A stretch of 29,854 nucleotides of DNA from positions 1-29,854 of the IMG/VR virus record IMGVR_UViG_3300031841_000418. One strand, written 5' to 3'. The notes under the pieces were generated by a model, which saw only the letters and a list, made by a program, of their open reading frames with translations, ran no database searches and was not told the origin of the DNA. Of the stretch, positions 26,149 through 26,209 are shown piece after piece. The stretch's first letter is position 1, and each line of letters begins with the position of its first letter. Source of the DNA: a virus. A program made the position numbers and the translations under genes.

Positions 26149-26209
26149 TTGGTAGAGCAGCGGACTGAAAATCCGCGTGTCGGTGGTTCGAATCCGCCCC
26201 TGGGCACCA
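26149..26209 (+). other. attP-like site: 3' part of tRNA-Phe(GAA)
   Basis: The segment carries the 3' D-arm strand, a perfect anticodon stem (GCGGA/TCCGC, 26160-26164 and 26172-26176) with loop CTGAAAA and GAA anticodon (26167-26169), a 5-base variable region, T stem-loop (26182-26198), 3' acceptor strand CCTGGGC, discriminator A and CCA (to 26209). The 5' acceptor strand and 5' D-stem are absent, so it is not a functional tRNA. Phages often carry such 3' tRNA copies as attP so the host tRNA stays whole after integration. The integrase gene lies about 390 bases downstream. Confidence 0.8.

Follow-up and report, generated by a model that had tools for sequence, protein, structure and literature searches.

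A partial tRNA-Phe gene as the probable attP core of an uncultured podovirus, bracketed by covarying complementary arms

The window analyzed here, a linear virus fragment of 29,854 bp, carries at positions 26148-26209 (plus strand, as for all features below) the 3'-terminal 62 nt of a tRNA-Phe(GAA) gene, from tRNA position 15 to the CCA end. On the basis of sequence comparisons, we consider it very probable (roughly 0.93) that this segment serves as the attP core in a podovirus that carries an integrase and targets tRNA-Phe(GAA) in an alphaproteobacterial host. Such a claim is an ordinary one of a common kind, and it is well supported; it links an uncultured phage group to Alphaproteobacteria. 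The new part of the finding is a pair of arms around the core that covary in sequence while staying complementary to each other.

The tRNA-Phe piece and the integrase operon

The segment reads GTTGGTAGAGCAGCGGACTGAAAATCCGCGTGTCGGTGGTTCGAATCCGCCCCTGGGCACCA. Its anticodon arm (GCGGA-CTGAAAA-TCCGC, 26160-26176, anticodon GAA) is whole, and the variable loop, the T arm (GGTGG-TTCGAAT-CCGCC), the 3' acceptor strand CCTGGGC, A73 and the terminal CCA (26207-26209) are intact, while the 5' acceptor strand and the 5' D-stem are absent. A preliminary description made from the letters alone had listed these same present and missing parts accurately. Its placement of the segment at 26149-26209 also stands except for the left edge, as identity between phage and host starts at G26148 and the shared block is thus one base longer, at 62 bp. 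ARAGORN called no tRNA in the window, and the Rfam tRNA model scored the piece at 28.8 bits, just below the cut-off of 29, the acceptor being mismatched and the D arm missing; the complete functional tRNA fold that the preliminary description had named as contrary evidence is not found here.

A tyrosine integrase gene follows 394 bp downstream of the piece, within the order terminator hairpin, tRNA piece, two small ORFs, integrase, terminator and T7-type RNA polymerase. The upstream hairpin with its T run (26015-26052, fold of -19.4 kcal/mol, with an equivalent in the relatives checked) came from folding, having been missed by a consensus terminator scan. The two ORFs, of 63 aa (26262-26453, the first gene 3' of attP) and 40 aa (26460-26582), have no known domain. 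The integrase (275 aa, 26603-27430, PF00589 at 72 bits) carries the full catalytic set R-K-HxxR-H-Y close to the core, with R141, K168, H222, R225, H249 and Y258 invariant in an alignment of 14 relatives; the nearest annotated integrases are about 31% identical. A terminator-like hairpin with a T run, found by the terminator scan, ends the integrase gene (27421-27442), and the gene for the T7-type single-subunit RNA polymerase follows (27502-29854, Pfam RNA_pol at 249 bits), cut by the contig end.

A possible phage-polymerase promoter element, ACTAACCGACCCCC, occupies 26065-26078 and has a second exact-type copy at 27464-27477. The C-rich pattern ACTAACCG[A/C]CCCCC is exact at both positions, one preceding the attP operon and the other the gene for the polymerase. 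Several relatives have similar words in the corresponding place; the match count is not above chance with three mismatches allowed. A scan found no sigma-70 promoter upstream of attP, the scores of the group being no higher than those of shuffled sequence (z 1.4), and we rejected on these scores the sequence TTGCAT-N17-TATTTT at 26092-26120, which can be read as such a promoter.

The single-subunit polymerase is a feature of T7-like (Autographiviridae-type) temperate podoviruses, to which the phage may belong. Elsewhere in the window, the portal protein matches phrog_1216 and is 28-32% identical to portals of Pseudomonas, Bradyrhizobium and Methylophilales phages, and a megablast comparison of the first 25 kb with named phages gave no match. 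A 1763-aa ORF at 5406-10697 has no PHROG or Pfam match and is positioned like an internal virion or ejection protein. The tail fibre gene contains collagen-like Gly-x-y repeats with a 9-nt period (19281-19656).

Related phages, host genes and integration

Close relatives of the integrase are encoded on 17 viral contigs. An exact 51-mer is confined to six viral contigs, all among these 17, and where the integrase is complete in the six it is at least 92% identical. Relatives with 64-85% integrase identity carry a 3' piece of tRNA-Met(CAT) at the same place, and a wider search yielded 80 loci, which added pieces of tRNA-Thr, Cys, Lys, Arg and Tyr there, so that seven tRNA targets (these five, Phe and Met) occur across the phage group in the same layout. 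Maximum-likelihood analysis of 40 integrases places the Phe phages in a single clade (support 100/99) nested within the Met phages, and the target labels require six changes in all. A second recent target change is seen on a well-supported branch of two integrases, one beside a tRNA-Lys piece (L152) and the other beside a tRNA-Thr piece (L153). The Phe and Met targets have the anticodon stem GCGGA/TCCGC in common and differ in the loop; a single integrase lineage has moved between tRNA genes alike in this stem.

The boundaries of homology in these relatives bear on the point of strand exchange. The right end is always the CCA, and the left edge shrinks into the anticodon stem in three loci (L129, L132 and L149) and never beyond the loop, which places the exchange at the anticodon loop or on its 3' side. 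Given these boundaries and the comparison of Phe with Met targets, we consider it most likely that the exchange takes place at the loop CTGAAAA (26165-26171), the putative overlap region, with the stem GCGGA/TCCGC providing the core binding sites of the integrase.

In the proposed course of events, the integrase would exchange strands in the anticodon loop of the host tRNA-Phe gene, which would receive from the phage a new, identical 3' end, leaving the tRNA functional; the prophage would begin directly behind the tRNA with the integrase operon. The expected attL is GCCCAGGTAGCTCAG followed by the core and joined to CCACTAGCGTCATCGG, and the expected attR is GTCCCGAC followed by the core and joined to host DNA.

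One relative with a tRNA-Met target (L127, integrase 74% identical) looks like what would be expected of attL after integration. It begins with 26 bp of other DNA, continues with a complete tRNA-Met and then with phage sequence up to the integrase, and has no left arm; the presumed host DNA is limited to these 26 bp, and the opposite end lies beyond the contig stretch. The 5' half of its tRNA-Met, missing in the free relatives, matches tRNA-Met genes of Alphaproteobacteria that likewise have a GTGG D-loop, and the full tRNA-Met, 5' half included, is present in alphaproteobacterial genomes. The preliminary reading of the segment as attP for a tRNA-Phe target thus holds up, on the partial tRNA, the adjacent integrase with a complete catalytic set, the same layout with other tRNAs and the restored tRNA of this relative.

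The exact 61-mer was found in 85 stretches of bacterial genomes in a search of 84,980 genomes, and an exact match of this length is far beyond what chance would give. The preliminary description had proposed searching for the segment at the 3' ends of tRNA-Phe genes; this is its position in every readable stretch, where the 5' half of tRNA-Phe precedes it. In 77 of the 80 host loci read, the preceding sequence is GCCCAGGTAGCTCAG, making a complete host gene; a contig end truncates two of the other three loci, and the third has one substitution. ARAGORN called tRNA-Phe(GAA) in all 30 host loci tested. By their titles, nearly all of the host records are Alphaproteobacteria of many orders (SAR116, Sneathiella, Rhodospirillales, Hyphomicrobiales and others), a few giving only Proteobacteria. 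A record titled Oceanobacillus sp. HTM 045 (WNWL01000004) has an alphaproteobacterial tRNA-Phe and is probably mislabelled or contaminated.

Because the 61-mer occurs in species of many alphaproteobacterial orders, the fragment identifies a class and not a species. The earlier suggestion that a genome carrying the identical ~60 bases would be the host is therefore right in kind, at a resolution too weak for any species to be named. We infer a host among marine-type Alphaproteobacteria, resolved to class only, with SAR116 weakly favored. That the host is a SAR116 (Puniceispirillales) bacterium is a rather doubtful proposal. The 61-mer is present in 17 of 136 SAR116-order genomes versus 10 of 372 sampled genomes of the class (p = 5e-5), although the order was sampled more densely than the class. 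When the 50 genomes that carry the Phe 61-mer are compared for the sister phages' Met core, it is present in 8 of the 14 from the SAR116 order and in 1 of the 36 others. The strongest genomic relatives of the integrase also fall in this order, but they are distant and none lies in tRNA-Phe, and the D-loop of SAR116 tRNA-Met is CTGG whereas that of the L127 host gene is GTGG. Other uncultured phages were earlier tied to SAR116 by the same integrase and att logic, by authors who warned that such matches give broad taxonomy only (PMC3861242).

The preliminary description had also proposed looking for prophages flanked by the 61-base repeat; here the search came back empty, with no prophage in tRNA-Phe among the 50 genomes of candidate hosts, the 136 of the SAR116 order or the 385 sampled from the class, and it is from sequence that we infer actual integration of the Phe phage. 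The integrase relatives in candidate hosts that we considered as tRNA-Phe prophages, in G001 (frameshifted), G026 (beside tRNA-Lys), and G123 and G125 (both distant), are none of them at tRNA-Phe. The frameshifted relative, in a SAR116 genome (contig 13, ~31.1-32.2 kb), lies behind coaD and a 5' part of tRNA-Lys, with phage-like genes downstream and a complete tRNA-Lys ~8.8 kb further; it looks like a decayed prophage.

Two other origins of the segment were weighed, and both are very improbable. It might be a phage-encoded tRNA-Phe gene, functional or decayed, that serves translation, and ARAGORN does call a 73-nt tRNA-Phe in four relatives (L005, L006, L020 and L024). It makes no call, however, in the window or its nearest relatives (L003, L004, L022 and L023), and the window, without the 5' acceptor and D-stem, lacks a complete cloverleaf; the missing 5' half rules out a functional phage tRNA at 26148-26209. 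The pattern of conservation also argues against a tRNA gene kept for translation: the 3' sequence is preserved to the last base while the 5' side varies freely between phages, and pieces of other tRNAs occupy the same spot in relatives. Alternatively, the record being a 29.9-kb linear fragment, the segment could be attR, at the junction of a prophage, or a chimera in which phage and host sequences were assembled together. Host DNA would be expected downstream of an attR, and a full tRNA in an attL, whereas phage-conserved sequence flanks the core on both sides in independent contigs, one of them of 41.6 kb.

Complementary arms around the core

The attP core is bracketed by two arms, within 26129-26266 in the window and at equivalent positions in 45 related loci. 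The left arm (26129-26152) consists of phage DNA and the first core bases, and it is complementary to the right arm (26210-26242), which can alternatively pair with the SD region of the next gene. The flanks are complementary across the core in all 15 diverged flank classes. Duplexes between a phage's own left and right arms average -22.8 kcal/mol, versus -15.2 kcal/mol with the arms of other phages (z -7.5, p = 5e-5, the floor of 20,000 permutations in this comparison of own and foreign partners over the 15 distinct classes). The signal is lost when the left-hand window is shifted by at least 50 nt or the right-hand one by at least 45 nt, with traces at shifts of 20 and 35 nt on the left. Pairings that changed and were kept include GGAC/GTCC in the window, GGGC/GCCT (L128), AAGGGT/ACCCTT (L136), AGAGC/GCTCT (L153), GGGCC/GGCCC (L157) and GAGAGCT/AGCTCTC (L189). 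RNAalifold on a plain sequence alignment recovered the tRNA hairpins and nothing else, since the arms are not alignable at the sequence level, and we used the partner test instead.

The right arm pairs with its own next-gene SD region better than with foreign SD regions (z -4.7), and its two alternative pairings overlap, with 7-14 bases in common. In the window, an inverted repeat forms a leader hairpin (GTCATCG...CGATGAC, 26218-26266) that encloses the SD (GGAGA, 26250-26254) and the start codon of the first ORF. The SD that the right arm could mask is the integrase's own in L153, L157 and L189, and elsewhere a small ORF comes first. In energy computations on the 15 related classes, the mean cost of opening the SD is 4.4 kcal/mol in the free-phage RNA, 7.6 kcal/mol for the trailer alone (without the left flank and tRNA) and 7.1 kcal/mol with a foreign left arm. 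The own left arm lowers the cost in 13 of 15 classes relative to the trailer and in 12 of 15 relative to foreign arms (Wilcoxon p 0.0009 and 0.002); L152 and L161 go in the opposite direction in the trailer comparison, and L149 and L187 differ little. The corresponding values for the window are 3.2, 7.8 and 7.6 kcal/mol, and the cost in L127 is 9.5 kcal/mol.

These computations predict mutually exclusive, covarying pairings separated by attP, which could form in RNA or in DNA. The simplest reading, to which we give somewhat less than even odds, is that the arms fold as RNA and keep the integrase operon's ribosome-binding site accessible in the unintegrated phage and in that state only. In the free phage, the transcript would hold both arms paired around the tRNA piece, leaving this site open. 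Integration would move the left arm to the far end of the prophage, and transcription of the host tRNA would run into the right arm, which would fold onto the ribosome-binding site and turn the integrase off. A separate int repressor would be unnecessary under such a switch.

The arms might equally be DNA elements, such as inverted arm-type integrase sites or a cruciform, a reading to which we give a probability likewise a little short of one half. A TCCGTTGAC-like word at the left mirrors GTCATCGGA at the right, and pairing of the antisense strand is about as strong (-23.0 versus -22.8 kcal/mol) with few G-U pairs, so the pairing would suit either strand. Protein sites should keep their sequence, however, and the arms diverge yet stay complementary even among integrases at least 92% identical. 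The match of the right arm to its own SD region beyond chance and the lower SD-opening cost with the own left arm also speak against DNA elements. If the RNA switch is real, it would explain how podoviruses that have integrated immediately downstream of an active tRNA gene keep the integrase silent, besides being a compact control part for integration vectors.

Comparison with known systems

As in the window, integrase-carrying T7-like marine podoviruses of the P-SSP7, S-TIP37 and HTVC019P type have a tyrosine integrase by the T7-type RNA polymerase gene and a tRNA fragment identical to the host's. Integration of P-SSP7 and S-TIP37 has been shown experimentally, and T7-like cyanophages with int and a tRNA-Leu attP integrate and form no stable lysogens (PMC8776855). 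In the cyanophages, attP is located 3' of int and corresponds to the first half of tRNA-Leu (PMC8776855), whereas the window has a 3' piece of tRNA-Phe upstream of int. A tRNA-Leu fragment was reported in an HTVC019P-like genome (PMC3861242); the same pattern search found no 3' tRNA piece in the 2.5 kb before the HTVC019P integrase. The roseophage CRP-3 integrates at tRNA-Met, its core overlapping the 3' end of the host tRNA-Met(CAT) gene in an alphaproteobacterium (PMC6918029), as would be the case for the sister phages here; CRP-3 is an HMO-2011-type phage, and its target differs from that of the window. The class A islands of Islander combine a 3' tRNA fragment, a tyrosine integrase and a crossover in the anticodon loop, a common sublocation of the class (PMC4383910). 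The window does not differ from them in principle, with the crossover placed here by inference.

For the arms, we found nothing closer to an RNA switch or promoter displacement at attP in the open-access literature than lambda sib and KplE1 intS. In lambda, integration separates sib from int. There, as proposed here, an element adjoining the attachment site controls int post-transcriptionally (PMC5300877); sib, however, is downstream of int and lowers its expression via RNA decay, whereas the proposed arm is upstream and would expose a ribosome-binding site. In KplE1, as in the window, the att region and the control of int overlap at a tRNA gene; the intS promoter overlaps attL and is autorepressed at the promoter level in the prophage (PMC2951348), where for the window we propose a hairpin in the leader RNA.
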